In this document: positions 8,303-36,401 of the stretch, piece after piece
How positions within the stretch are numbered: the stretch's first letter is position 1
How the letters are laid out: each line of letters opens with the position of its first letter
NCBI GenBank assembly: GCA_002368685.1
Contig: DFEN01000062.1
Coordinates: 1 to 36,401, forward strand
Direction: 5' to 3'
Length of the DNA stretch: 36,401 nucleotides
Origin: Lachnospiraceae bacterium UBA3801
Lineage (GTDB): Bacteria > Bacillota > Clostridia > Lachnospirales > Lachnospiraceae
Made by a program: the position numbers and the translations under genes
Notes under the pieces: generated by a model
What the model was told of the DNA's origin: nothing
The model's database searches: none
The model's input: the letters and a program-made list of their open reading frames with translations, nothing else

Positions 8303-10041
8303 TATTTAACCTTGTCGAAATCTGCATCATTTTCCTGCAAGGAAGTATAATATTCCTCAAAATGCTCCCTAGCTTTCACATAGTACTCTTCAAGGTCTTT
8401 ATCAAACTGCGTTCCCATTCCCTCCATTATAATTGAGTCGACCTCCTCGAAGGACATACGTCCCTTATAGACTCTCCTGCAGGCAAGGGCGTCATACACA
8501 TCCGCTATAGCTACTATACGAGCTTCAAATGGTATCTCGTCCCCTGTCAGATGGTCAGGGTAGCCCTTACCATCTATTCTCTCATGATGGTAATGTGCGA
8601 CATTTTCGGCTATCTGCTTATAGGACTCGTCATCCGTATCATCAAGGATCTTGTGAAGTATCTTCGCCCCCTCTGCCGCATGAGACTTCATTATGTCATA
8701 CTCCTCATCGTTAAATTTACCTTCTTTTCGAAGTATAGCATCCTCTACAGTTATCTTCCCGATATCATGAAGTGGAGCGGCCTTGATAACATCTCTGAAG
8801 AATTCATCAGATAAACCGAACTTATTATCCTTCTTTATCTCATCAATAAGCATCCTGGTGCAGTCACTTACTCGCTTTACATGACCGCCTGTAGAATTAT
8901 CACGACCTTCAACCATCATAGCCATACTCATAATGAGATTATCATGCATCTCAACTATTCTTTTAGTCTTACGATCAACCTCTTCCTCAAGCTCATTATT
9001 ATACTTATCAAGGAGTTCTATATATTTCTGGTTCTTTGTATCATCACGAAGCAGTAGATCATAGCCCTTTATCTTGGAGCCATGATAGAGATAATTCACA
9101 TCAACAATGTAGGCCCTATTATTTTCTTCATTTTCAGGATCCCTAATGACATATAGATTCTTAGACTCTGATTCATCCTTAAAATGCTTAATCCAGTGAA
9201 GTACATTATGATTCAGGAATTCACACTCGATAAGGTTCTGATCCACGTGAAGATTCCTTAGTCCAGGAATTATTTCCTTTGCAGTTTCATTACTGCCAAG
9301 ATATCTATAGCCTAGATCAAAGGATATAAGTCCCGTCTCACCGGTCTGAACCATCGAATCAATAACAGTTTCGTTGATATTATAAAATGTTATCCTACGG
9401 ATGATCAGCAAATAAACTAACTGAGCAACCACATAAAGAATTGGAAGAATCTCTATTTTTCTAGAAATTAGTCTAGCCCCCCAGAAGCCAAATAGAGATA
9501 GAGCCTCTGGCAAAATCAGAAGTATAAGAACTATTCTGGAAACTTCGGACTTCTTAACAAAAGCATATATTATACCAGTAAGTCCTACAACAAAATAGCA
9601 ACCTATCACAACAAATAGCAAGGTATGCCATATTCCATACTCCTTTTGGTAAACCATTTCATGGCCCACCATTTCGCCCTCAATAGACTTATAAAAATAT
9701 GGGAGTTTTCCAATAGTCAGAACAGATATATACGTTACGAAACTAATAGTAGTCACTATCAGTCTCATCCATCTCTTTACATGAATCTTACACAGTCGAA
9801 GCACGCAGAGATTTATAAATAACGGAAGAAAGCAACCACCAATGTATGTAATCATGGTACCTGCTATAAACTGATTGATATCTTTAGATGCACTTTCAAT
9901 CACATAACCTAGATTGGCTATAGGAATAAGTACGAATATCAGGGTTATATTTACCTCGAAATGCTTATGCCACTTATAAACGTATAAAAGTGATAAAATG
10001 ATTGAAGCAAGCAAACAGGCAAAATAATAGGTATATAACAT
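8302..10041 (-). CDS. 7TM-sensor HD-GYP cyclic-di-GMP phosphodiesterase
   Basis: This 579-residue protein has about seven membrane helices in residues 1-220, like the N-terminal 7TM domain of some histidine kinases. A PAS-like region follows (about 225-335), then a coiled coil (about 338-375) and an HD-GYP domain (about 375-560). All catalytic marks are present: His387 in STGGHVKRVS, HDIGK at 425-429, His454, and HHERIDGKGYP at 485-495. It should hydrolyse cyclic di-GMP (or a related cyclic dinucleotide) in response to a membrane or extracellular signal. It is a single-gene unit with its own promoter. There is no receiver or GGDEF domain. Confidence 0.92.
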   Translation of the reverse strand: MLYTYYFACLLASIILSLLYVYKWHKHFEVNITLIFVLIPIANLGYVIESASKDINQFIAGTMITYIGGCFLPLFINLCVLRLCKIHVKRWMRLIVTTISFVTYISVLTIGKLPYFYKSIEGEMVGHEMVYQKEYGIWHTLLFVVIGCYFVVGLTGIIYAFVKKSEVSRIVLILLILPEALSLFGFWGARLISRKIEILPILYVVAQLVYLLIIRRITFYNINETVIDSMVQTGETGLISFDLGYRYLGSNETAKEIIPGLRNLHVDQNLIECEFLNHNVLHWIKHFKDESESKNLYVIRDPENEENNRAYIVDVNYLYHGSKIKGYDLLLRDDTKNQKYIELLDKYNNELEEEVDRKTKRIVEMHDNLIMSMAMMVEGRDNSTGGHVKRVSDCTRMLIDEIKKDNKFGLSDEFFRDVIKAAPLHDIGKITVEDAILRKEGKFNDEEYDIMKSHAAEGAKILHKILDDTDDESYKQIAENVAHYHHERIDGKGYPDHLTGDEIPFEARIVAIADVYDALACRRVYKGRMSFEEVDSIIMEGMGTQFDKDLEEYYVKAREHFEEYYTSLQENDADFDKVK

Positions 10042-24513: not shown

Positions 24514-25233
24514 CTAAATGCCAACATTATTAACTATTGAAATAGATATGCTGTTATCTATAAGCGCCTGTATATCAGTGCCTTCCTCCGCCTTCTCCTG
24601 ATAACGACCATCTATCATATATCTCGCACCGCCATTATCCAGACAAGCGGTCTGCTGATACCTGTCTACGAAGAACATACTTCTTGATATCTTCCTATCC
24701 CGAAGTATCTCCTGAAAATCTGTGAGATTGCAGTTCGGAAAATTAACATTCCATATCTGACCGAATTCCAGCTTCTTATCAATAAGTTCTATAACTATCT
24801 CTCTCAGATATTTATCCGTCACCTCGTGTACTCCGCCCTGTCCCTCAGATAGAGCAATTCCTATAAAACCCTGGAAAGCCGCTTCGAAGGCAGCTCCACA
24901 TGTACCGGAATACTGAATATCTGTAGCTGTGTTATAACCATTATTTACACCTGACAGTACAACATCAGGCTTATATGGCATAACACTTAAGCTTCCAACT
25001 CTTACACAGTCCCCAGGTGTACCACTACAGGTAAAAGCATTTACACCCTCTATTCCATAATCATAGGGATATATATCTATGGAACCATGAAGAGTTATAG
25101 CATGTGATGATGTACTTCTCTCGCCATCAGGTGCTACTATCCATATCTCACCTAGGCCCCTGACAGCATCAACAAGACGTCTAAGTCCACTAGCTTCGAT
25201 TCCATCATCATTTGTTATTAGTATTTTTCTCAT
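24514..25233 (-). CDS. surE: 5'/3'-nucleotidase SurE
   Basis: A 239-residue metal-dependent nucleotidase. The metal site is formed by Asp9-Asp10 (ILITNDDGIEASGL), Ser40 (APDGERSTSSHAITLH) and Asn97 (LSGVNNGYN), all in place; the loop FTCSGTPGDCVRVG is typical. SurE dephosphorylates nucleoside monophosphates and is tied to stress survival. Its ATG overlaps the stop of the upstream 787-residue gene by one base (TAATG), so its translation is probably coupled to that unknown protein. Confidence 0.95.
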   Translation of the reverse strand: MRKILITNDDGIEASGLRRLVDAVRGLGEIWIVAPDGERSTSSHAITLHGSIDIYPYDYGIEGVNAFTCSGTPGDCVRVGSLSVMPYKPDVVLSGVNNGYNTATDIQYSGTCGAAFEAAFQGFIGIALSEGQGGVHEVTDKYLREIVIELIDKKLEFGQIWNVNFPNCNLTDFQEILRDRKISRSMFFVDRYQQTACLDNGGARYMIDGRYQEKAEEGTDIQALIDNSISISIVNNVGI

Positions 25234-27596
25234 TAAGGTTTCATTGCTCCTTTAGACTTTTCATGTTCCTGCGCCGTCTTCTTAACACTAGGCTGGCCTG
25301 ATACAACTCTGGCTATCTTAAGAATAGTTTCTGGTTGTCTAAGCTCGTGGGCTAGATTCTTTGGATGCTTCAGCTTCTTATCACCGGTTTTTTGGCGCAT
25401 CATCTTCTGGAAAGCTTTATTTTTAGCTAGACTCTTACTTGCATTTTCCAAAGTGATAGGCTGATTAGTCTTAGGATCAATAGGTCTAGTACCTGTCCTC
25501 TTAAACATTTCACCTACCGCAACTATAGCAGCATCTCGCACATAATTATTTATATCTTCTACATTATCGAAATTATCATTTTCGAGATGCTCAAGCTTCG
25601 CCTTTGCGAGTTTCAGAAATTTTTGATTTTCCGCCATAACTATTATTTTTTCCTTTGTCGGAAGATTACTCACCGCATCCTTATTATTAGCGGCTTCAGG
25701 ATGAAACTTTACATTCTTGAAAAGCGAAGTATCAAGTATACAGTCCATTAGTTCAGCAGAACTATATTTCACCTGATAAAAAACATCAGTATAATCATTT
25801 AGTGCAGTATTTATCTTCACATTACGCATTTCGCGGATTTCATTATTCTTCTGAACCGCTAGTTCTGTATATGAAATATCCTTATTCTGATTTTCTAGTA
25901 AAACATCCCTTAAATATTTAATAGCGACACCATGCCTAACCACAGTATCATACATATGTCTATCAGAATCAGGGTCGAGTTTGATCTGAGCTAAAGGTTC
26001 TTGCAATCTAAAAATATCATCGCTAAGTAATGCTATTATACCCTGTCTATGATCTCTGTATGTCATAAAATCTGGGTTTTTCTCACTATCATAGGTCGGA
26101 TCCTCTTTAGCAACACTATTAATTTCTGGAATTACATGACTTATTTCCTGATAAACGTCAAACATAACGCCAGACAGGTTATGCATAATTGCATAGTTTT
26201 GATCACGCAGAAAATCCTTTGTAAAATCAACCTTTTTATATAGAGCGTCCATAGCATTATCAGCACACTTAAAGCCCTCATACATCTGCTTTGCTATCCA
26301 CTTTTTATCCTCTGGTGCATCGCTCTTACAACGTCTTAGGACCTCATCAAAGATTTCCGCCTTCTCATCTTTTAACTTATCTACATCCATAATATCTTTA
26401 ATATCATAGCCTTTATTTAGCAGTACAAAAACAGATATAGAATATCCCGCACTTCTACCTAAGGAGAAGGGGGATCCATCTAACTCTGCTAAACTATGAT
26501 TGCCAAGAAATACATGTCTATGTTGTTGCATAATCACAGCATATTTATCTATGGCATCCATCATATCTCCAAATGCACCTTTATTCAGTTCATCTCTAAC
26601 CGAATCTATTATTGTACCTACTTTACGAATATTAAGAGAAAGGCGTTTCTTTATGCTCTGCACCATCTCAACCCTTTTCTTAGCATATTTTGAATTGATA
26701 TTTGTCTTATTAACGAGATAAATATTAGCCTTATCCAAAACAGATTTAGCTAATTTGGTGTATTCCTGTGTTTCATGGATACTAAGTGGTCTACCAAGCT
26801 TTGCATATTTTTCAGCTAGCTTAACAAGGTTTCTGAATTCTCGCTTAAAAGCTTTAAAATTAGGACTACTAGTCTTATAGTCCACACCTTCTACTTCTTT
26901 AAATAGGTTCTGTAAAAGCATTGCATTCTTCTGAATAGAATCTACATGGAGGTCAGCAAATTCGAGTCCCTCCGTTTCTGTAGACCAAACTTCATCCGCC
27001 ATACGTCTATCAACACTTCTCTGGACACTGAGAATCTGCTCTTCATATTTAGCTCTCGTACCATCATTATATTCCTTAGAAACATCTGGAATACTAACAT
27101 TATTGAAGACTCCTAGTCCATTTTCTGTATTTTCAGCAGCGGCATTTATGGCCGCCTCTAATTCTTCCTGATTTTTAGCGGTCATTATATTTTTATATAC
27201 ATCACTATTTTTTATTTCATCCATATAGAAGTTTTCTAGTATATCTTTACCATTTGGACTGGCAATAAGAACATCTATATTAGTGTAATGATAATCCTTA
27301 TCTATACTGATCAGGTTTTTAACATCCTTCTCATAATGACGAGTATTATAATTAGTAATTGAGGAAGCTTTTAAAAAATGATCAAGAATATCTTTTGCTC
27401 TTTTTTCTCTCGCTTCTTCTATATACTTTGCGGTATTTACGATATAGAGATTAAAAAGCATCACGGAAACTGTTTTTGCCTTATCAGCTTCTTTCATATT
27501 AAAAAATCCAGTCAGAAGTTCTCTATTTAGATCCTCTGCCTGTTTCTTTAGCTTCTTTTGTTCATCTTGGGATTTATTATAGATTCTTGAGGCCAT
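25233..27596 (-). CDS. Large helical protein of unknown family (paralog A)
   Basis: A 787-residue protein with no domain I recognise. It has no signal peptide and no membrane segment. It is lysine/glutamate-rich, predicted almost all alpha-helical, with likely coiled coils at 1-40, 245-320 and 650-700. Blocks shared with the partial protein at 34317-36401 are: NFYMDEI near 122-128, NKTNINSKYAKKRV near 296-309, a core at about 377-458 (FSLGRSAGYSISV, DIMDVDKLKDEKAEIFDEV, APEDKKWIAKQMYEG) and a C-terminal block at about 650-700 (MAENQKFL, DAAIVAVGEMFKRTG). A ribosome site (AAGGAG) lies before the ATG. Its stop overlaps the surE start. Function is unknown; a scaffold or an effector-like role is only speculation. 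Confidence 0.9.
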   Translation of the reverse strand: MASRIYNKSQDEQKKLKKQAEDLNRELLTGFFNMKEADKAKTVSVMLFNLYIVNTAKYIEEAREKRAKDILDHFLKASSITNYNTRHYEKDVKNLISIDKDYHYTNIDVLIASPNGKDILENFYMDEIKNSDVYKNIMTAKNQEELEAAINAAAENTENGLGVFNNVSIPDVSKEYNDGTRAKYEEQILSVQRSVDRRMADEVWSTETEGLEFADLHVDSIQKNAMLLQNLFKEVEGVDYKTSSPNFKAFKREFRNLVKLAEKYAKLGRPLSIHETQEYTKLAKSVLDKANIYLVNKTNINSKYAKKRVEMVQSIKKRLSLNIRKVGTIIDSVRDELNKGAFGDMMDAIDKYAVIMQQHRHVFLGNHSLAELDGSPFSLGRSAGYSISVFVLLNKGYDIKDIMDVDKLKDEKAEIFDEVLRRCKSDAPEDKKWIAKQMYEGFKCADNAMDALYKKVDFTKDFLRDQNYAIMHNLSGVMFDVYQEISHVIPEINSVAKEDPTYDSEKNPDFMTYRDHRQGIIALLSDDIFRLQEPLAQIKLDPDSDRHMYDTVVRHGVAIKYLRDVLLENQNKDISYTELAVQKNNEIREMRNVKINTALNDYTDVFYQVKYSSAELMDCILDTSLFKNVKFHPEAANNKDAVSNLPTKEKIIVMAENQKFLKLAKAKLEHLENDNFDNVEDINNYVRDAAIVAVGEMFKRTGTRPIDPKTNQPITLENASKSLAKNKAFQKMMRQKTGDKKLKHPKNLAHELRQPETILKIARVVSGQPSVKKTAQEHEKSKGAMKP

Positions 27597-27775
27597 AGTA
27601 CTACTCCTTTTTTTTATGTATTATATATAATACTTAACAACAAAAGCGCAACATAGGCAGATTATAACATAACTAAATGATGTTTTTTAGATGGAAATTT
27701 GCTACATCCTTGATGACGATTTGAATCATAATCAATTTGAAATATACGGGTATCCAAATATGGAGGTATCTAAAA
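27597..27775. promoter_or_regulatory. Divergent intergenic region between paralog A and the DUF4173 gene
   Basis: These 179 bases hold the promoters of two divergent genes. On the minus side an A/T palindrome, GTATTATATATAATAC (27618-27633), contains TATAAT on both strands and probably includes the -10 of paralog A. On the plus side TTGAAT (27721) and TATACG are a weak promoter candidate, and TGGAGG (27770 region) is the ribosome site. I see no gene in it. Confidence 0.4.
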
Positions 27776-29443
27776 ATGAATGAAACGAATAACGTAAATA
27801 ACGGTAGTGTCTACAGACCGAATATGTCAGGGCAGAGACCCCAGACAATGTCAGGGTTTACGGCTCCTCCCGAAAATGCTGTCCAGCAGGGATATATGCC
27901 AGGATCTGGAAATGCCCAGATGGGCTACTGGGGCATGGTAGCAAGAGAAACTCCTGAGCAGACTAAAGAAAGAGCCCGTATAGGAAGTAAGCTATTCCGA
28001 CTCACATTGGCATATGCACTGTTCTTTACATTTTGTTTATATAATAATCCTTCAGGTGTGACTATGCCCCTATTTGCGGCTGGTACACTGGTATATATCT
28101 GTTATATACTGAACTTCTATGGAGTAAAGATAAAGAAATCCAGCTATTTCTACGGAGCTGTCATTCTGGGACTCTCCATCTCCAATATGCTGACCGGAAA
28201 TTCATTTTTCATATTCTTTAACTGTATCGGCATACTACTGCTTACATTTGTATTCTTGCTTCATAATGTTTACGACGATTCAAAATGGAATCTTCCGAAA
28301 ACCACCATCGCCATCCTTGAATCCTCCTTTGGTTCTCTTGGATGTCTCGATGATTATATAAAAGATAAACGTGCCATGAAGGAACATGGCCAAACTAATG
28401 CAGGGGGATCCTCTGATAGAAATGGTATTCTGGGATCAGTTATTCTGGGACTTGTTATCGCAGTTCCAGTAGTTGCAATCATCCTCGCTCTCCTGGTAAA
28501 TGCTGATGTTGTATTTAAAACACTGGTTACAGATTACCTTTCTATCAAGGTGGACGGCGTCACAATATTTGGCGTGGTTATGACATTTATCTTCAGCTAC
28601 TTCGCCTCCTTCTGCATAATGAGATTCTTCGCCAAGAAAAGGATCAAGGAAGAGGTTACCAGTCACAATAACTTCGAGCCCGTGGTTGCAATCACGGTTC
28701 TATCCATAATCGGAGTTATCTATATGGCTTTCTCTTTGATTCAGATCATCTTCCTTTTCTGGGGAGGCATGGAGCTGCCGGACGGCTACACCTATGCTGA
28801 GTACGCAAGGGAAGGCTTCTTCCAGTTGCTTACTGTATGTATCATAAATGTAATTATCGTGATATTTGTGAAGGATTATTACAGAGAGCATGTAATACTG
28901 AAGGGGCTGATGACGCTGATATCGCTCTGCACTTATATAATGATTGCATCCAGTGGCCTCAGAATGCTGATGTATATAGATAGTTACAATCTGTCCTTTG
29001 ACAGAATACTGGTTCTCTGGACGCTCGCCGTACTGAGCTTCCTGCTGGTGGGTATAATTGTTTCGATTTATAAGTCAAGCTTCCCGCTATTTAGATATGG
29101 AGTTGTGATTGTCAGCATCTTCTATATGGCACTAAGCTTCTCACATACAGATAATATTATCGCCAGATACAACCTGTCTGTACTTGCTAACAGCGAGGTC
29201 AGCGCTGTAGTTGATGACGAAAAAGATAATGATTTTACATCAAGAAAAGAAGAAGGCTTAATTGACTACTACTATCTGGTTAACAATCTGTCTACAGATG
29301 CAGCACCAGCTATGAAGGAGCTATGTCCAAAGAAGTACAGAGATCAGTACTTTAAAAGAAACGCAAAATATTATAATGATACACAGCTCAGACATTTTAA
29401 TGTGTCAAGATATACAGCCAGAATGTTAGCTGAAAGTAAATAA
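27776..29443 (+). CDS. DUF4173/DUF4153-like multi-pass membrane protein
   Basis: A 555-residue protein. A soluble N-terminus of about 70 residues is rich in Gln, Pro, Gly and Met (SGQRPQTMSGFTAPPEN). About ten membrane helices follow from residue 75 to 450, then a soluble C-terminal tail. The family mark is LPDGYTYAEYAREGFFQLLT between helices, as in DUF4173. The start at 27776 is fixed by GGAGG nine bases upstream; the open frame begins 13 codons earlier without a ribosome site. It stands alone between a divergent promoter region and a bidirectional terminator. Its role is unknown; relatives in Firmicutes are only annotated as membrane proteins. Confidence 0.82.
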   Translation: MNETNNVNNGSVYRPNMSGQRPQTMSGFTAPPENAVQQGYMPGSGNAQMGYWGMVARETPEQTKERARIGSKLFRLTLAYALFFTFCLYNNPSGVTMPLFAAGTLVYICYILNFYGVKIKKSSYFYGAVILGLSISNMLTGNSFFIFFNCIGILLLTFVFLLHNVYDDSKWNLPKTTIAILESSFGSLGCLDDYIKDKRAMKEHGQTNAGGSSDRNGILGSVILGLVIAVPVVAIILALLVNADVVFKTLVTDYLSIKVDGVTIFGVVMTFIFSYFASFCIMRFFAKKRIKEEVTSHNNFEPVVAITVLSIIGVIYMAFSLIQIIFLFWGGMELPDGYTYAEYAREGFFQLLTVCIINVIIVIFVKDYYREHVILKGLMTLISLCTYIMIASSGLRMLMYIDSYNLSFDRILVLWTLAVLSFLLVGIIVSIYKSSFPLFRYGVVIVSIFYMALSFSHTDNIIARYNLSVLANSEVSAVVDDEKDNDFTSRKEEGLIDYYYLVNNLSTDAAPAMKELCPKKYRDQYFKRNAKYYNDTQLRHFNVSRYTARMLAESK

Positions 29444-29456
29444 GTACGACATAATC

Positions 29457-29510
29457 TAAAAGCCCGCAGATCTTAAGAAGTTAAATACTCCCTAAGCTGC
29501 GGGCTCTTTT
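29457..29510. terminator. Bidirectional terminator between DUF4173 gene and lipase gene
   Basis: AGCCCGCAG (29461-29469) pairs perfectly with CTGCGGGCT (29497-29505), followed by CTTTT on the plus strand. On the minus strand the stem is followed by TTTAG. It sits between two convergent stop codons (29443 and 29516), so it can serve both genes. Confidence 0.88.
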
Positions 29511-29515
29511 GTAAA

Positions 29516-30727
29516 TTATAAACCTCTGGCCTTGAGGTCGCTTACAAGGTTTACATAAAATTCTCTAACATCAAAGCCTGATATATTCTCACGATTAAGG
29601 TCAATCATATCTCCATGGGATATACCTCTATTTTTCTTATTCTCTATATAGGTATAGTTCTTACCCCAACGGAAGGAAGGTTCTCCTACCAGTCCGTCAT
29701 TTGGTCCGTCAAATCTACCCACGAAAAGATAACTCATATTTAGTGGAAATGCCCCACTAGTTGCATTTTTCATACAAGAGCCCACACTCTGTGTATATAC
29801 ACCATGGGCGCCGTAATCAAAGGTCGAAAGAGCTCCCCATATCTGCTTACAGCGAACTGCCGTAAGGTCCGTAACTGCTGCTATAAAGTCCGGATTCTTG
29901 TCTCCCATCTTGCGAAGCGCCGCATTATATGCTGCAGCCACTTTTTCCTGCAGTCCCTCTGGAGCTTTTGTAAGTAAGTACTCTGCAAATTCACATCCGA
30001 GATGAGGAGTATTTATTGTTGTTATCGAAGCAACATATTCAGAAACTCCCTGCATGGCTACTGCCGTCTTAACATCCAGACCGCCCTTTGAATGTGCTAT
30101 TATATTCAGCTTGCCGCAGCCTGTAGTCTCAACTATCTCTCTTATTCTAGCCGCCAGTTCCCTGGAGCTATTCTCAACGGATGCAGCCGACTGATGATTT
30201 CCGTAATAGATAGTTGCGCCATTTTTAATCAGTTCCTCTGGAATACGTCCCCAATAATTGAAATATTTATAATCTCTGAAGAATACTCCGTGGACCATAA
30301 GTATTGGATACTTAGTCTTGCAAACCTGCTCCTTTGCTCTACTTAGATCGAGCTTCAGCTTTGCTTTCTCGAAGCTGTATTCATTTGTAGCTATGGTAAT
30401 GATAAGTACGAGAACCACAAGGTTTACTATTGGTATCATCCCACAAATGATTCCGAGGATTCGCATTTTTAATCCCAACTGAGTTGAAGTTATGTAAACC
30501 AAGATAATACCAAGCCAGAAAATAATTGTTTCGTAAATAATTGCCGCCACTACCCATTGCCAATAATCGCGGAATACATCCTTGATTCCGTCCTTAATCA
30601 GCAGGACAATGAGTCCAATCGATAGAGCAAAAACTGAAATCATAAAAATGATCAGAAGTATACTTCCGAGATTCAGGAGATTCAGTCTTGCTTTTGTTAT
30701 TGGTTTTTCTACTCTTCTGTCTGTCAT
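29516..30727 (-). CDS. Membrane-anchored alpha/beta hydrolase (lipase/esterase-like)
   Basis: A 403-residue protein with three N-terminal membrane helices (about 18-44, 58-80 and 88-112) and a lipase-like alpha/beta hydrolase domain from about 138. The oxyanion strand is PILMVHGVFFRDYKYF. The nucleophile elbow AHSKGG has Ser213 (the first Gly of GxSxG is Ala here). The acid is probably Asp340 or Asp344 (VGRFDGPNDGLVG), and the base His371 (GISHGDMIDL). TINTPHLGCEFAEYL is typical of triacylglycerol lipases. The small gene upstream ends in ATGA overlap with this one. The substrate is unknown; a membrane or extracellular lipid ester is likely. Confidence 0.88.
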   Translation of the reverse strand: MTDRRVEKPITKARLNLLNLGSILLIIFMISVFALSIGLIVLLIKDGIKDVFRDYWQWVVAAIIYETIIFWLGIILVYITSTQLGLKMRILGIICGMIPIVNLVVLVLIITIATNEYSFEKAKLKLDLSRAKEQVCKTKYPILMVHGVFFRDYKYFNYWGRIPEELIKNGATIYYGNHQSAASVENSSRELAARIREIVETTGCGKLNIIAHSKGGLDVKTAVAMQGVSEYVASITTINTPHLGCEFAEYLLTKAPEGLQEKVAAAYNAALRKMGDKNPDFIAAVTDLTAVRCKQIWGALSTFDYGAHGVYTQSVGSCMKNATSGAFPLNMSYLFVGRFDGPNDGLVGEPSFRWGKNYTYIENKKNRGISHGDMIDLNRENISGFDVREFYVNLVSDLKARGL

Positions 30728-31143
30728 TCTTCCCCCTCAAGCTCTACTACAACTGTCACTTTCTTGTCATTAACCTCGAGTCCTTTAATGGATATGTTAT
30801 CCCAGTCAAAAGACATCGCTTCTATCTCCGCTGTCTTTACATCTCTGTCTACGAGAATGTATCTATGTCCTTTGGAATTAACACATATAGCAAAGTAAAG
30901 CTTCGGACTTTCTATTTCATATACGTGATTCAGCTTGTACTGCATTTCCTGCTTCTCATCTGTATCGAGATTATGAACTGTGAGTACGGGGCCCGTACCA
31001 TCTGGTGCCTCATTTATCTTCCTCAGCTCCTCAGGGAGCTTATCCTCCGTGAGGTAGCCAAACCTTATGATATCACCGAAGGTCTTCACTTCCTTCTTGT
31101 AGGTGAACTTGTTTATTAATCTTTTAAATGCATATAAAATCAT
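30724..31143 (-). CDS. Small protein of unknown function coupled to the lipase gene
   Basis: A 139-residue protein that I do not recognise. It has a basic N-terminus (MILYAFKRLINKFTYKKEVK), no clear membrane segment, and a mixed alpha/beta middle (FGDIIRFGYLTEDKLPEEL, then YKLNHVYEIESPKLYFAICV). The C-terminus is acidic (VVVELEGEE). The start at 31143 is set by AGGAG five bases upstream; the frame is open to 31170. It overlaps the lipase start by four bases (ATGA), so the two are translated together; a chaperone or regulator of the lipase is possible but not shown. Confidence 0.8.
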   Translation of the reverse strand: MILYAFKRLINKFTYKKEVKTFGDIIRFGYLTEDKLPEELRKINEAPDGTGPVLTVHNLDTDEKQEMQYKLNHVYEIESPKLYFAICVNSKGHRYILVDRDVKTAEIEAMSFDWDNISIKGLEVNDKKVTVVVELEGEE

Positions 31144-31245
31144 TTTGACTCCTGCTACTTTGTAACTCAATTCATACTAAAAAGAAAAAACCGCAGATAA
31201 TATCCTTCATAATATCATATTTTATGGAACAAATGGAGTACAAAA

Positions 31246-31254
31246 TGTTATAAT
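31246..31254 (+). promoter_or_regulatory. Extended -10 promoter of galK-galT
   Basis: TGTTATAAT is a perfect -10 with the TGn extension, 66 bases before the galK ATG. The -35 region (TGGAAC, 18 bases upstream of TATAAT) is weak. The leader that follows contains a small stem, CCCTT with AAGGG around 31265-31288. The ribosome site AAGGGG (31303-31308) is rather far, 11 bases, from the ATG. Confidence 0.6.
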
Positions 31255-31319
31255 ACAAATATCTCCCTTGGGGTACTTTTATAAGGGGAAATACTAGGTG
31301 AGAAGGGGATATAAACTTA

Positions 31320-32606
31320 ATGAAAACTAATGAACTGATTAATTATATCAGAGATGGTAAGCTGGATCAGCGACTCTCTGATATATATCTTGACAATTTG
31401 AAGATGGACTATCAGAGATCCAGATACATTGATGCTATCGCGAAGTATAGTGAAATCTATGGCGAGGACTCCGCAGATGTAGAGATTTACAGTGCTCCCG
31501 GTCGAACCGAGGTAGGCGGAAATCATACTGATCATCAGCATGGACAGGTACTCGCCGCTTCTATAAATGATGATGCGATAGCTATCGTTTCTAAAAATAG
31601 TTCCAACACTGTAAATGTCAAATCCGAAGGCTATGATATGATTACTATTTCACTTGGTGATATAGCTAAGAGAGACGACGAGGAAGGAACTACTCTTGCC
31701 CTGATCAAGGGCGTTCTTGCAAGCTTCAAGGATAGAGGCTACACGATTGGCGGCTTTAATGCTTACATCACCAGCGATGTTCTGGGAGGCTCAGGGCTCT
31801 CTTCCTCTGCTGCCTTTGAGACTATTATCGGAAATGTTATTTCAGGGCTTTATAACGATATGAAGGTGGATGCTGTTGAGATTGCAATTATCGGCCAGTA
31901 TGCTGAGAGCGCATACTTTGGTAAGCCTTGCGGTCTGATGGATCAGATGGCATGCTCCGTTGGAAGCCTGTGTCATATAGATTTTAAAGACCCTAAGAAC
32001 CCTATAATAGAGCCAATTGTGGTGGACCTGGATGAGGTCGGTTATTCTCTATGCATAACAGATACAAAGGGAAGTCACGCTGATCTTACTCCTGACTACG
32101 CTGCTGTACCTGCTGAAATGAAAGCTGTTGCAGCATTCTTTGGTAAGGATGTACTGATAGAGGTTTCCGAGGATGAGGTTGTGGCACATATCCCTGAGCT
32201 TCGGGAAAAGCTGGGGGACAGAGGCGTTCTGAGAGCACTGCATTTCTACGAGGAAAATAAACGTGTGGAAAAGGAAGTAGCCGCATTAAGGTCTAAAGAC
32301 TTCTCTTCTTTCCTTGCAAATGTTAAGGCTTCTGGGGACTCGTCCTTTAAGTTCCTTCAGAATGTTTATACAAGTCACGATGTACAGCATCAGAATGTAT
32401 CAATTGCTCTTTGTGTAAGCGAGAAGGTTCTTGGCACAGACGGAGGCGTTGCCAGAGTTCACGGAGGTGGTTTTGCCGGAACTATACAGGCCTTTGTCAA
32501 GAACGATAAGGTTGCCGAATATAAGGCCGCTCTTGATAAAGTATTCGGAGACGGTGCCTGCAATGTGCTGAAGATAAGGAAGTATGGCGGAATTCAGGTT
32601 GTATGA
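31320..32606 (+). CDS. galK: Galactokinase
   Basis: A 428-residue GHMP kinase that phosphorylates galactose at C1. The galactose-binding signature GRTEVGGNHTDHQ is at 61-73, the phosphate loop is GGSGLSSSAAFE (about 155-166), and the third motif is VHGGGFAGTIQAFV near the C-terminus. The catalytic Asp lies in CGLMDQMACSVGS. It is about 35 residues longer than E. coli GalK, mainly at the N-terminus, as in other Clostridia. It is followed after 70 bases by galT, giving the first two Leloir steps; no epimerase or mutarotase gene is in the window. Confidence 0.95.
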   Translation: MKTNELINYIRDGKLDQRLSDIYLDNLKMDYQRSRYIDAIAKYSEIYGEDSADVEIYSAPGRTEVGGNHTDHQHGQVLAASINDDAIAIVSKNSSNTVNVKSEGYDMITISLGDIAKRDDEEGTTLALIKGVLASFKDRGYTIGGFNAYITSDVLGGSGLSSSAAFETIIGNVISGLYNDMKVDAVEIAIIGQYAESAYFGKPCGLMDQMACSVGSLCHIDFKDPKNPIIEPIVVDLDEVGYSLCITDTKGSHADLTPDYAAVPAEMKAVAAFFGKDVLIEVSEDEVVAHIPELREKLGDRGVLRALHFYEENKRVEKEVAALRSKDFSSFLANVKASGDSSFKFLQNVYTSHDVQHQNVSIALCVSEKVLGTDGGVARVHGGGFAGTIQAFVKNDKVAEYKAALDKVFGDGACNVLKIRKYGGIQVV

Positions 32607-32676
32607 TATTTGCAGTTGATTAATAGCTTAGAAGGATATGGGATTACTATATTTTAAAATACGAGAGGATAAACAT

Positions 32677-34233
32677 ATGTCGAATATAAACCAGCTCATA
32701 AATGAATTAGTAAGTTATGGAATCACAAGCGGCCTTGTCTCTGAAGATGACAAGGTCTATACAATAAATAAATTAATAGAGTTTTTTAAGGTGGAGGAAT
32801 ATTTACTACCAACTGATGAAATGGATGACTCAGATCCCCGAGAGCTACATTCAATTCTTGAGGATATGACTGAATATGCCATCCAAAATGGGCTCCTTGA
32901 AAAGGATACTATCACTTACAGGGACCTCTATGATACAGCAATAATGGGACTTCTTACACCTCCGCCATCGGTGGTAAGAAATAAGTTTAAGGAGCTTTAT
33001 GAAAGTGGTAAAGATGGGGCTAAGAAAGCAACTGACTTCTATTACAACTTCAGTAAAGCAACAAACTATATCCGTACAGACCGTATCGCAAAGGACGAGA
33101 AATGGACCACCTCTACTGAATTTGGAGATATCGATATAACTATCAATCTATCCAAACCTGAGAAGGATCCGCGTGATATCGCTGCAGCCGGTAAAGCAAA
33201 GAAGTCAGGTTATCCAGCTTGTCTTCTATGCAGAGAGAATGAAGGCTATGCGGGACATTTCTCTCATCCTGCCAGGCAGAATCACAGAATAATCCCCATT
33301 ACACTGGATGGTGACCAGTACTATCTGCAGTACAGCCCTTATGTTTATTACAACGAGCACTGCATCATATTCAATGAGAAACATATTCCAATGGCGATCA
33401 ATCGCTCGACTATGAAGAAGCTGCTGAGCTTTGTGGAGTTGTTTCCGCATTATACAGCGGGTTCAAATGCTGACCTGCCGATTGTTGGTGGTTCTATTCT
33501 GTCCCACGACCACTTCCAGGGCGGCGGATATGAATTCCCAATGGTCAGAGCGCCTTTCGAGAAAAGCTTCACAGTTTCCGGTTTTGAGGATATTTACAGT
33601 GGAATAATCAAATGGCCTATGTCGACGATTCGTCTTCAGGGTAAGGATATTGATAGAATCGTAGAGCTGGCGGATAAGATACTTACCAGTTGGAGAGGTT
33701 ATACCGATGAGGGGGCATTTATCTTCGCTGAGACTGATGGAGTGCCTCATAATACTATCACTCCTATCGCGAGAATGAGGAAGGCCAGAGATGCTAATAA
33801 TCAGCTGGATGCAGAGCACGACGTATACGAGCTGGACCTTGTTCTGAGAAACAATATCACTACGGAGGAGCATCCACTGGGGGTTTATCATCCACACGCT
33901 GAATATCATCATATCAAGAAAGAAAATATCGGACTGATAGAAGTAATGGGACTTGCGGTTCTACCCGCTAGACTTAAGAAGGAAATGGCTCTTCTAGAGG
34001 AATCCATTAGAGAAGGCAGGGATTTATATGCCGATGAAGCACTCCAAAGTCATGCCAAGTGGGCAACGGATTTTCTTCCTAAGTATGGAGACAAGGTCGA
34101 GTCTGATTTACATAAAATAATACAGGATGAGATAGGTTTTGTCTTTTCCGGTGTTCTCGAAGATGCCGGTGTCTACAAAAGAAATGACGAAGGAAAAGCG
34201 GCCTTTAATAGATTCCTTGATTCTATCAGGTAA
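32677..34233 (+). CDS. galT: UDP-glucose-hexose-1-phosphate uridylyltransferase (class II)
   Basis: A 518-residue protein of the long Firmicutes GalT type. The catalytic His region is SILSHDHFQGGGYEFPMVRA. Other family blocks are GYPACLLCRENEGYAGHFSH (with two cysteines), NEHCIIFNEKHIPMAI and GVYHPHAEYHHIKKENIGLI. It transfers UMP from UDP-glucose to galactose-1-phosphate. The start at 32677 follows GAGAGGATAAACAT; the frame is open to 32638 without a ribosome site. It is the second gene of the galK operon and ends just before a perfect terminator. Confidence 0.95.
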   Translation: MSNINQLINELVSYGITSGLVSEDDKVYTINKLIEFFKVEEYLLPTDEMDDSDPRELHSILEDMTEYAIQNGLLEKDTITYRDLYDTAIMGLLTPPPSVVRNKFKELYESGKDGAKKATDFYYNFSKATNYIRTDRIAKDEKWTTSTEFGDIDITINLSKPEKDPRDIAAAGKAKKSGYPACLLCRENEGYAGHFSHPARQNHRIIPITLDGDQYYLQYSPYVYYNEHCIIFNEKHIPMAINRSTMKKLLSFVELFPHYTAGSNADLPIVGGSILSHDHFQGGGYEFPMVRAPFEKSFTVSGFEDIYSGIIKWPMSTIRLQGKDIDRIVELADKILTSWRGYTDEGAFIFAETDGVPHNTITPIARMRKARDANNQLDAEHDVYELDLVLRNNITTEEHPLGVYHPHAEYHHIKKENIGLIEVMGLAVLPARLKKEMALLEESIREGRDLYADEALQSHAKWATDFLPKYGDKVESDLHKIIQDEIGFVFSGVLEDAGVYKRNDEGKAAFNRFLDSIR

Positions 34234-34251
34234 TTAAAGATGCTATAACGT

Positions 34252-34290
34252 AAATAAGTCAATGAACCACTGTTCATTGACTTATTTTTT
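34252..34290 (+). terminator. Rho-independent terminator after galT
   Basis: AAATAAGTCAATGAAC (34252-34267) and GTTCATTGACTTATTT (34272-34287) are perfectly complementary over 16 bases with a four-base loop, and run into more Ts. It lies 19 bases after the galT stop. It may also serve the convergent paralog B gene, which stops at 34317, though the minus-strand side lacks a long T-tract. Confidence 0.92.
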
Positions 34291-34316
34291 ATAATTATAT
34301 ATGTCCTACAAACCCT

Positions 34317-36401
34317 TTATTTCTTTATAGTCTCGTTCTTGACTATATTTGTTTTTTTTGCGTTTTTTAGATTCTTTTGATACTGAATCTCAGCATATTT
34401 GTCATTGCTTTCCTTAATGATCTTCTTAAGCTTGTTGGTATCCTTAGCCATTCTTATAATGTCATTGCCAGCCTTATACTTTCCAGGACTCTTCTCAGAT
34501 TTTAACAAATCTTCGAATATAGGATTATTCATCTGCATCTTAACATATTTCTCAAGCGGAACATCCTTTCCTGTTTTAACATCTGCTGGAAGCTTATAAC
34601 CAGCCGCTCTATACATCTGGCCGAAGAGTACAATTGCACAGTCCTTCTTATAATCATCAAACTCTTTATACTTCTTTTTTGACAGACGCTCAGCCGCTTC
34701 GTTTATCTTCTTTAAGAACTTACCATTTTCAGCTACAGCCTTCATCTTCTTCTCATCAGGCATATTGTTCACTGACTGTTTCAGAGTGTTCATATCAGTC
34801 GTTAATGTAGTATCTTTAAATGAGCCTCCTTCGATAAGCTCTTCTGCAAGATTTTCTGCAAGCTTTGTATCCTTCTTAAGATATGAAAGCTTAGGCTGGA
34901 TTGCCAGGTAGCCATCTCCAGTACCAAGAGAAGCGAACTCATTTCTTTCCACAGGACTAAACCAATCCTTAAAATGCGTATCCTTCATAGTCTTCTGCTT
35001 CTCAGCCATAGCTTTAAGCGTAGTATTTAACTCTATGGTCTTGGTCATAAGTTGTGCAGCATGCTTGTCCAGACCAGTCTTCTCTGTAACCAGGCGAACC
35101 GCAATCTCTTTCTGCTCTTCCATGGTTTTACTTACCATCTGAAGCGGTGACCATACCGGGAGGATATCTTCAAACTTCTTTATTGTTGGATCATCCTTCT
35201 GATACAGTGGAAGAATCTCTTCTTTACAATGCTTCATTTCCTGTTCTGCATCTCCGCAATGATGAAGCATTCTTGTTACCATATTGAACTGCTTATCTCT
35301 AAAGATATTTGGCTTATTAAAATCTATCTTCTTGATCTGCTCATCCAGCATGTTGTAAGCAGCCTTTGTTCCGTTATACATAGTCTCTGCAAGATACTTC
35401 TGATCCTCAGGGGTCTGATTCCTCATTGCAGTAGCAACCTTATCAAAAGCCTCAGCCTTTTCAGCGTGAAGTTTCTCAGGATCCATAATATCCTCAAAGG
35501 AGTACTTTCCTGAAGCAGCAAGCGCCATGACTGCAACAGATACTCCCGCCCCTCTGCTAAGAGAGTATTGTCTAAGACGAGCAGGGATTCCACGGGTCAA
35601 AGGATAAGCATATTTTTTACCATAGAAAGGATTCTCATTATCAGGAACTCCTTTAAGGCTGATGGAATCCTTCATAGAGGTTCTTTCACCGAAGAGTTCC
35701 TCTATCTTTTCCTCTTTCATGTTCTTTATTGCAGGTTCAACAGATGCAATAACTGGCAGCAGGGATCGTCTTAATTCTTTTACTCCATCTACTCTGGCCT
35801 TTGCATAAGGACTATTTATATCGGTTTTATTATCAAGATATTTCTCAGCGAGCTTATCTACTTCTTCAGCAAGATTCAGATATTCCTTCGCTTCTTTCTC
35901 ACTTAGCGTCATACCTGATTTCGCATTCTTTTCCGCAAGATTCTTAAGTTCCTTAAGCTTTGTGAGCATATTCTTATAGTTATTATTCTTAGAGCCGCCC
36001 CAGAAATTATTACCATCAACCATACGATATAATTCATCTATTTGGGCAGAATGTGCCTTTAGATCCTCAGTTGACAGATTATCATATCTGAAATTCTGGC
36101 CATCTTCTTCGAATACACCCTGAGCGCTATATGCTTCTTTTAATGTATCTCTTTGTTTCTTCTTTATCTCAGCGGTAAAGGCTTCTTTATACTTGTCATT
36201 TACTGCCTTTGATTCATTTGGAAGCTTAACTGAGGTAATCGATGTGATTCCCTTACTGGTTACTGCATCTGAAAGAACCAGATTCCTAAGAAAATCTTCT
36301 TTTGTAGGAGATTCAACAAGCCTCTTATAGTTATCGGTCTTCCTTATCTCATCCATATAGAGATTTCTGATTCTTTCTTTACCATCTGGCTGAGACATGA
36401 T
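34317..36401 (-). CDS. Large helical protein of unknown family (paralog B), N-terminus beyond window
   Basis: At least 694 residues are visible. The frame is open at the right edge. The visible start MSQPDGKERIRNLYMDEIRK aligns with residues 111-130 of paralog A (about 110 residues in), so the first ATG here is internal and roughly 110 residues are missing. It is Lys/Glu-rich, without membrane segments, and ends in a basic tail (NLKNAKKTNIVKNETIKK). Shared blocks, numbered from the visible Met, are: LYMDEIRKTDNYK (13-25), NKTDINSPYAKARVDGVK (190-207), YSLSRGAGVSVAV (278-290), EDIMDPEKLHAEKAEAFDKV (302-321), TPEDQKYLAETMYNGTKAAY (329-348), and AVAENGKFLKK near the C-terminus. Function is unknown. 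Confidence 0.9.
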   Translation of the reverse strand: MMSQPDGKERIRNLYMDEIRKTDNYKRLVESPTKEDFLRNLVLSDAVTSKGITSITSVKLPNESKAVNDKYKEAFTAEIKKKQRDTLKEAYSAQGVFEEDGQNFRYDNLSTEDLKAHSAQIDELYRMVDGNNFWGGSKNNNYKNMLTKLKELKNLAEKNAKSGMTLSEKEAKEYLNLAEEVDKLAEKYLDNKTDINSPYAKARVDGVKELRRSLLPVIASVEPAIKNMKEEKIEELFGERTSMKDSISLKGVPDNENPFYGKKYAYPLTRGIPARLRQYSLSRGAGVSVAVMALAASGKYSFEDIMDPEKLHAEKAEAFDKVATAMRNQTPEDQKYLAETMYNGTKAAYNMLDEQIKKIDFNKPNIFRDKQFNMVTRMLHHCGDAEQEMKHCKEEILPLYQKDDPTIKKFEDILPVWSPLQMVSKTMEEQKEIAVRLVTEKTGLDKHAAQLMTKTIELNTTLKAMAEKQKTMKDTHFKDWFSPVERNEFASLGTGDGYLAIQPKLSYLKKDTKLAENLAEELIEGGSFKDTTLTTDMNTLKQSVNNMPDEKKMKAVAENGKFLKKINEAAERLSKKKYKEFDDYKKDCAIVLFGQMYRAAGYKLPADVKTGKDVPLEKYVKMQMNNPIFEDLLKSEKSPGKYKAGNDIIRMAKDTNKLKKIIKESNDKYAEIQYQKNLKNAKKTNIVKNETIKK

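Follow-up and report, generated by a model that had tools for sequence, protein, structure and literature searches.

Type IV secretion systems (T4SSs) of the VirB/D4 and Dot/Icm types in Gram-negative bacteria are accompanied by large modular effector repertoires, which are encoded beside or around the secretion genes, carry charged C-terminal tails and in some cases possess protease or lipid-kinase-like domains. In Gram-positive bacteria, dedicated effector T4SSs have been a long-standing question with one precedent, according to a review (PMC12857230). In the same review, the 89K T4SS of Streptococcus suis belongs to a pathogenicity island, with SspA-1 as the one named and proposed protein substrate, and the Gram-positive conjugative T4SSs of the MPF-FA and FATA types comprise VirB4, VirD4, a pilin and a large VirB6-like protein (PMC12857230). 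Here, we analyzed the window, i.e., the entire contig DFEN01000062.1 (C132; 36,401 bp) of the draft genome of Lachnospiraceae bacterium UBA3801 (G000; 1.64 Mb, 71% complete), and propose that two paralogous proteins encoded on it, A and B, are likely effector-type cargo of a dedicated Gram-positive T4SS in Lachnospiraceae. An effector T4SS in this family was not found by title or abstract opening among the literature matches listed. The system considered here resembles the Gram-negative ones in its large modular repertoire, in its charged tails and in the protease- or lipid-kinase-like domains of some members; unlike them, it is a Gram-positive locus known from its genes alone, and no match of A or B to a known effector was found by sequence. 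As in the 89K system, protein substrates are proposed for a Gram-positive T4SS, but here many giant genes (a class drawn by composition, which also takes in an ATPase-like protein that is unrelated and a fragment of VirB4) share the promoter of the machine. Of the four components named for the MPF-FA and FATA systems, VirB4, VirD4 and the pilin recur, along with a candidate for the large VirB6-like protein, whereas the absence of a PF03432 relaxase at the locus, the linked giant arrays and the genes for STAS, SpoIIE, histidine kinase and response regulator proteins set it apart from these conjugative systems as described in that review.

Paralog A (787 aa) is encoded at positions 25233..27596 and paralog B at 34317..36401, both on the minus strand; B has an open 5' end, with 694 aa visible and its 5' part beyond the contig end. 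BLASTP aligned 657 aa of the two proteins at 28% identity and 48% positives with an E value of 4e-61, so that the blocks common to both are not attributable to chance; the original prediction, made from the letters of the window, had described two paralogs with collinear blocks, and its motifs are present in this alignment. It had recognized no family either, and indeed no curated family matched A or B: Pfam returned nothing above cut-off (sub-threshold only TatD_DNase at 16.6 bits and FumaraseC_C at 12.2 bits), NCBIfam gave zero matches, and PHROGs gave weak matches only, to families of unknown function. Among PDB sequences, A had no match at E 1 and B had eight matches at chance level (E 0.033 to 0.65). 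A 19-residue scan of both proteins detected no hydrophobic segment (maximum 1.03 in A and 1.17 in B), in line with the predicted lack of membrane segments, and the all-helical nature foreseen for the family is reflected in the predicted models of A and of the B-type relative P0008, which are almost entirely helix. The proposed Foldseek comparison of these two models with the PDB (E up to 10) yielded 22 matches for A and 54 for P0008, none of them at 0.001 or better.

The T4SS was recognized in relatives of the window's genome. A giant array directly adjoins one conserved T4SS block in G062 (contig C26, from another genus), G014 (C24) and G367 (C30). In the G062 block, VirB4 (Pfam P-loop_TraG, 68.1 bits) and the VirD4 coupling protein (T4SS-DNA_transf, 179.2 bits; TraG-D_C, 110.5 bits) scored above cut-off, the VirB6/TrbL-like protein fell below it (TrbL_4, 18.4 bits against 27), and a VirB2-type pilin was found in the G027 block (T4SS_pilin, 47.5 bits against 26.6). 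No profile match to a VirB1-type wall hydrolase or to VirB8 was obtained among the block proteins scanned, no search having been aimed at either. The same block was present on 12 contigs, which had been picked for holding VirB4, and giant cluster c2 lay within it on 11 of these. All 25 full-length VirD4 copies of the genus were 80-85% identical to the VirD4 of G062, and the other VirD4-like matches in the genus shared 22-31% over their main segments. Regulatory genes are also found in the block: G062 encodes a SpoIIE phosphatase there and G027 a histidine kinase, a response regulator and a STAS protein, as assigned by Pfam. The STAS and SpoIIE-phosphatase genes suggest control of the machine by a partner switch. 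A further conserved block protein of approximately 1,700-2,240 aa mostly has signal-peptide-like starts (e.g., L114:1702-7485, minus strand), with a PLAT/LH2 match of 28.5 bits in one copy, and could be a surface or cell-wall part of the machine. Loci L206-L213 (G220, G106, G174, and G171) encode a related system in which VirB4 is shorter (51-53% identity) and two VirB6-like genes are present, with no giants in the stretch read; this is perhaps an ancestral or differently used form.

Presence of the family, as scored with a profile of a 12-row alignment, was compared with that of the T4SS. The family was detected in 28 of the 61 genomes of the window's genus, as befits the expanding and lineage-centred family that had been predicted, and in 5 of 299 genomes drawn at about one per genus of Lachnospiraceae. 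A T4SS was called at a VirB4 score of at least 270 bits or a VirD4 score of at least 450 bits; these thresholds were set after the gap in scores had been seen, no uncounted genome scored above approximately 100 bits, and at E 0.001 VirB4 would be counted in 38/61 and VirD4 in 41/61 genomes. The system's own VirB4 and its own VirD4 were each present in 28/61 genomes, with a union of 29, G030 being counted on a 272-bit VirB4 piece. Within the genus, 25 genomes held both family and T4SS, three the family only (G000, G017, and G360), four the T4SS only (G008, G025, G370, and G376) and 29 neither (Fisher p 6.5e-10), i.e., the T4SS was present in 25/28 family-positive vs 4/33 family-negative genomes. 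With VirB4 alone as T4SS criterion, the counts were 24, 4, 4, and 29 (p 4.6e-9). Among the 33 genomes of the genus listed as at least 90% complete, 16 held both, none the family only, one the T4SS only and 16 neither (p 1.5e-8); hence, the family-only genomes, the window's own included, are all less complete. In the 299-genome set, VirD4 was found in 12 and the family in 5 genomes with an overlap of 4 (p 7.4e-6), and giants stand beside the T4SS locus in G213, G304, and G180. The link between family and T4SS is tight in the genus and weaker outside it. Two other delivery routes were tried and rejected: YukC/EssB of the type VII secretion system (LXG-type delivery) was above cut-off in 0/61 and below cut-off in 3/61 genomes of the genus, and the sheath protein PF04984 of contractile injection systems (eCIS cargo) occurred in 6/61 genomes, three of them family-positive, without association.

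Furthermore, the machine genes and the giant genes, A included, share a predicted promoter sequence. Comparison of the upstream regions of 72 giant vs 295 other genes in the loci of the genus, with the window included, led to a direct repeat, TTTGTTGCnnnTTTGTTGC, with 16 informative positions, and to a promoter of the form TTTGTTGCnnnTTTGTTGC-11 bp-TATAAT. After genes with less than 70 bp of upstream space and duplicate upstream regions had been dropped, this box was present at 13/16 positions or better before 46/77 giants, 21/61 T4SS-block genes, foremost the pilin and the large extracellular protein, and 15/229 other genes, some of which have giant-like starts. Shuffled sequences, in which base composition only was preserved, reached this level in 0/385, 0/305, and 0/1,145 cases (0/1,835 in total); in a separate count, for which the gene classes were delimited differently, a fraction of 0.001 of the shuffles of other genes came up to 13. 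When G062 was held out, 7/9 of its giants had the box, with 0/45, 0/45, and 0/20 in shuffles. The -10 element had not been used in discovery: TA..AT was found 11 bp past the box in 50/82 sites, 11 bp being the commonest spacing. Boxed giant genes are scattered over many contigs, and in G304 a variant of the box precedes both a giant and the pilin. The putative regulon box of A, TATGTTGCGCTTTTGTTGT, agrees with TTTGTTGCnnnTTTGTTGC at 14/16 informative positions and lies at 27637..27655 (minus strand), ending 40 bp before the start codon; its -10 element TATAAT (27620..27625, minus strand) follows at 11 bp, as is commonest in the other boxed promoters. The A gene of Lachnospiraceae bacterium NE2001 has a weaker box (13/16), and the promoter of B lies off the contig. 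Allowing at most one mismatch, GTTGCNNNTTTGTTG occurs twice in the window against 0.08 copies expected (1/100 shuffles had two), the second copy (9588-9602) being without a -10 element.

Substrates of VirB/D4 systems often carry basic C-terminal signals. The last 30 residues of A (25236..25325) and of B (34320..34409), both on the minus strand, each have a net charge of +5. Likewise, the mean over 147 giants was +4.1, compared to -0.6 for 524 other proteins and -0.4 for internal 30-mers of the giants. When tails were grouped by similarity, 62 groups had a mean of +3.4 and 73% of them reached at least +3, compared to 18% among 192 soluble controls that are not giants (p 4e-16); the mean over 16 linked groups was +2.1 (p 7.5e-4). 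The tail set had been freed of open reading frames (ORFs) at locus ends, of ORFs below 250 aa and of duplicates by the last 40 residues, and still contains some edge-cut ORFs of joined stretches.

Relatives of A and B often sit among other giant soluble genes, and the three contigs spanning the T4SS locus hold 9, 17, and 21 giants by composition, one of the 21 being probably unrelated. When 44 relatives and neighbours were scanned with Pfam, an enzyme domain scored above cut-off in three giants, namely Peptidase_C2 in one (37.1 bits, cut-off 23.8) and PI3_PI4_kinase in two (28.6 bits, cut-off 27.1); all other proteins that passed a cut-off were ordinary neighbours. In P0006, which is of the A type and extended at its C-terminus, the PI3_PI4_kinase match was sub-threshold (17.2 bits) and matches to the PDB were at chance level only, and the motifs N.DRH.GN and GIDND are common to all three aligned kinase-like regions. 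A segment shared by three ORFs, of which L082 is fused to family modules, was assigned as papain-like because the NGCWS and GHY motifs are shared in the alignment, and a profile of the three relatives matched no PDB sequence at E 1. The NE2001-like array includes ORFs of 3,668 and 2,739 aa (G367:C30:88164-99167 and 99576-107792; L125 and L126), the second with a signal-peptide-like start. An MKE or MP start was found in 58/75 large soluble K/E/D/N-rich ORFs vs 11/183 others under a Shine-Dalgarno start rule, with homologs that are not independent; in a recount it was found in 66/147 giants and was the majority in 5/16 linked groups. As stop-to-stop sequences were mixed into the recount and homologs are not independent, this start is regarded as a lead only.

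The family itself proved to be modular. An initial protein search with A, in which approximately 8,000 candidates were scored, found five proteins, among them P0004 from NE2001 and P0005 from a Lachnospiraceae metagenome-assembled genome (MAG), and two later searches of approximately 8,000 candidates each added five more. One member, P0010, has Ruminococcus sp. MAG as its source name, and the family therefore reaches beyond the Lachnospiraceae genus sample. In the window's own genome, A and B are the sole copies at E <= 0.001. Five modules were distinguished, i.e., an N-module (YGP..G.MP ... EYN.I ... P.GLD...VTAI.IG), a middle part, a four-helix bundle, the core and a C-terminal module; their number and order vary, with ORFs of up to 3,094 aa. 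A profile of the N-module run against 391 genomes of the class matched only the window's own genome, weakly. The A-type short forms (P0001-P0005; 787-804 aa) are represented by A, which consists of all modules except the N-module. Its four-helix bundle, delimited by DSSP on the predicted model, spans residues ~218-333 (26598..26945, minus strand), and alignment places the core at residues ~376-445 (SLGRSAG ... DIMDVDKL..EKAE.FDEV ... PEDKK..A..MY.G; 26262..26471, minus strand) and the C-terminal module at residues ~650-735 (AENQKFLK ... GEMFKRTGTRP; 25392..25649, minus strand). In B, alignment to A locates the bundle at residues ~116-228 (35718..36056, minus strand), where it is visible in the model of the relative P0008, and the core at residues ~279-348 (YSLSRGAG ... 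DIMDPEKLHAEKAEAFDKV; 35358..35567, minus strand). VIA-align matched residues 223-333 of A, and the predicted bundle has a candidate likeness to the N-terminal four-helix bundle of large clostridial glucosylating toxins and to region 616-741 of SidC; most VIA-align rows cover this bundle alone, and the remainder of each model was barely probed. For each of two modules, an iterated profile of that module picked up one protein outside the family, and the bundle module also matched one reversed sequence; we therefore make no claim that the bundle is homologous to other neighbours. The core of about 80 residues had been suggested as the functional site; it ranks with the most conserved regions and is found again as a repeated module, but is without a recognizable catalytic signature, so this suggestion is unsupported. 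Where known catalytic signatures do occur, they are in separate domains of some relatives. What holds of the original interpretation is an unrecognized, lineage-centred, expanding and helical family; the modularity, the probable length of B and the link to the T4SS had been missed.

The length and history of B were assessed by comparison with its closest relatives. At 97.98% identity, B matches part of an ORF of 1,022 aa in G017, and the neighbouring genes differ between G000 and G017. The whole of this ORF is in turn 98% identical to P0007, a protein of 1,542 aa that has the N-module and ~520 further N-terminal residues; given the length of this close relative, probably ~850 residues of B lie beyond the contig end. 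Moreover, an 83-aa ORF adjoining VirD4 in the T4SS locus of G367 (contig C30; L084:6544-6792, minus strand) is 97.5% identical to the C-terminus of B over 81 aa. G367 appears to be the NE2001 genome, as its A-type gene is in the same place (98953-101316 vs 98941-101319). Since this fragment is 97.5% identical to B while A and the A protein of NE2001 share 54%, B has probably moved recently between species by transfer or recombination of B-type genes.

With A and B viewed as T4SS cargo, the following sequence of events is proposed. The response regulator encoded in the T4SS locus would bind the direct repeat and turn on the machine along with its cargo, VirD4 as the coupling protein would recognize the basic C-terminal tail, and the giants would be exported into the medium or a contacting cell, where they may be brought to membranes by the four-helix bundle. 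In some relatives, the active part would be a papain-like or PI3/4-kinase-like domain, and A and B, with helical modules only, would act as binding or scaffold effectors. More tentatively, as a possibility to which we give somewhat less credence than to its opposite, commensal rumen-type Lachnospiraceae might inject tens of giant modular effectors (to ~3,700 residues; papain-like, PI3/4-kinase-like) via one co-regulated dedicated T4SS into eukaryotes, most plausibly rumen ciliates grazing on them, A and B being helical, membrane-binding members. Butyrivibrio is a genus of Lachnospiraceae. Among eukaryotic targets, rumen ciliates are, as a guess, the favoured candidate, since the rumen MAG identifications include NE2001 (PMC9469553) and Butyrivibrio was found enriched with ciliates (PMC6079354). 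The data suggest that protein export to other cells may occur in a Gram-positive commensal. If injection holds true, commensal gut Firmicutes would own a route for passing effectors from cell to cell that does not appear among the literature matches listed. The present work points to a defined locus, to a promoter signature by which machine and cargo genes can be listed, and to the named strain NE2001, and with these in hand the question is directly testable.

Several observations weigh against A and B being T4SS cargo. Export, contact and target cell are inferred. This T4SS went undetected in the window's own genome (71% complete), where the search gave only a generic VirD4 (28%), and likewise in the family-holding G017 and G360 (86 and 84% complete), and the within-genus counts ignore phylogeny. 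Across genera, strong family hits only gave 2/3 vs 10/296 genomes (p 0.004); two of the four overlaps in the 299-genome set depend on weak family hits (27.4 bits in G304, at a distance of 7 kb from VirD4, and 19 bits in G274), a default HMMER run misses the G304 protein, and no giant gene was seen in the stretch read of the VirD4 genera G106, G135, G171, G174, and G220. Regarding the promoter, A was itself among the 72 giants used for box discovery, the box was present in 0/4 T4SS genes (one at 12) and 2/9 other genes (one of which is a family-member piece) of the held-out G062, and in held-out other genera it was found in 1/5 giants, 1/29 T4SS genes and 3/78 others, with 2/390 in shuffles of the latter. 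Additionally, A begins with MASR, unlike the MKE or MP of 58/75 giants, and the relaxase search at the locus covered one family, PF03432, only.

It has to be considered whether the giants stay in the cell. We judge it unlikely that they serve the secretion locus from within the cytoplasm as helper or scaffold proteins, such as an assembly platform, chaperones or regulators: the lack of signal peptides seen in the giants, the promoter they have in common with the machine genes, the position of cluster c2 within the block on 11/12 VirB4 contigs and the lack of an enzyme domain in A and B by Pfam or NCBIfam would all agree with such a role, but their numbers per contig (9, 17, and 21), the domain shuffling, the protease and kinase domains of a few and the patchy presence would be unusual for machine parts, and basic C-terminal tails are typical of VirB/D4 substrates. 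It is even less probable that the T4SS is the conjugation machine of a degenerate mobile element with the giants as accessory genes that have no role in secretion. B does seem mobile, with its 97.98% identity between G000 and G017 beside differing neighbours and the B-like 83-aa ORF next to VirD4 in G367. PF03432 relaxases, to which the search was confined with other relaxase families outside it, had 15 matches, spread over 7 of the 11 genomes searched (the T4SS is present in 10 of the 11), and no match was near the T4SS. Outside the closed genome G002, no match shares a contig with the T4SS; in G002 the nearest is ~350 kb off, and two of its three relaxases are within 5 kb of generic VirD4 genes. 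G358, G367, and G372 carry the T4SS with zero PF03432 matches, and the dispersal of boxed giants over many contigs likewise argues against this explanation. Finally, A and B could belong to a lineage-specific orphan family that works inside the cell and has nothing to do with secretion, linked to the T4SS by shared ancestry only. The window's own genome shows no such T4SS and three family-positive genomes of the genus, all below 90% completeness, are without one; nevertheless, we regard this explanation as highly improbable in view of the T4SS in 16/16 family-positive genomes at least 90% complete and of the A promoter, which matches box and -10 element at the common spacing.

Lastly, the neighbours of A and B in the window were inspected. 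The start of surE overlaps the stop codon of A as TAATG (25231-25235, minus strand), and because of this overlap surE and A may be co-translated in this genome. None of the lipase, galactose and surE genes lies beside the A-type gene of NE2001, and the lipase and galactose neighbours are considered incidental; the comparison of neighbours that the original prediction had advised was thus uninformative for the window, and its yield was the giant genes around relatives. At 31209-31244 (minus strand), a 12/16 box with a -10 element of 5/6 precedes a 148-aa ORF located before the membrane lipase gene, a match near chance level, as one such composite was found in 40 shuffles of the window.

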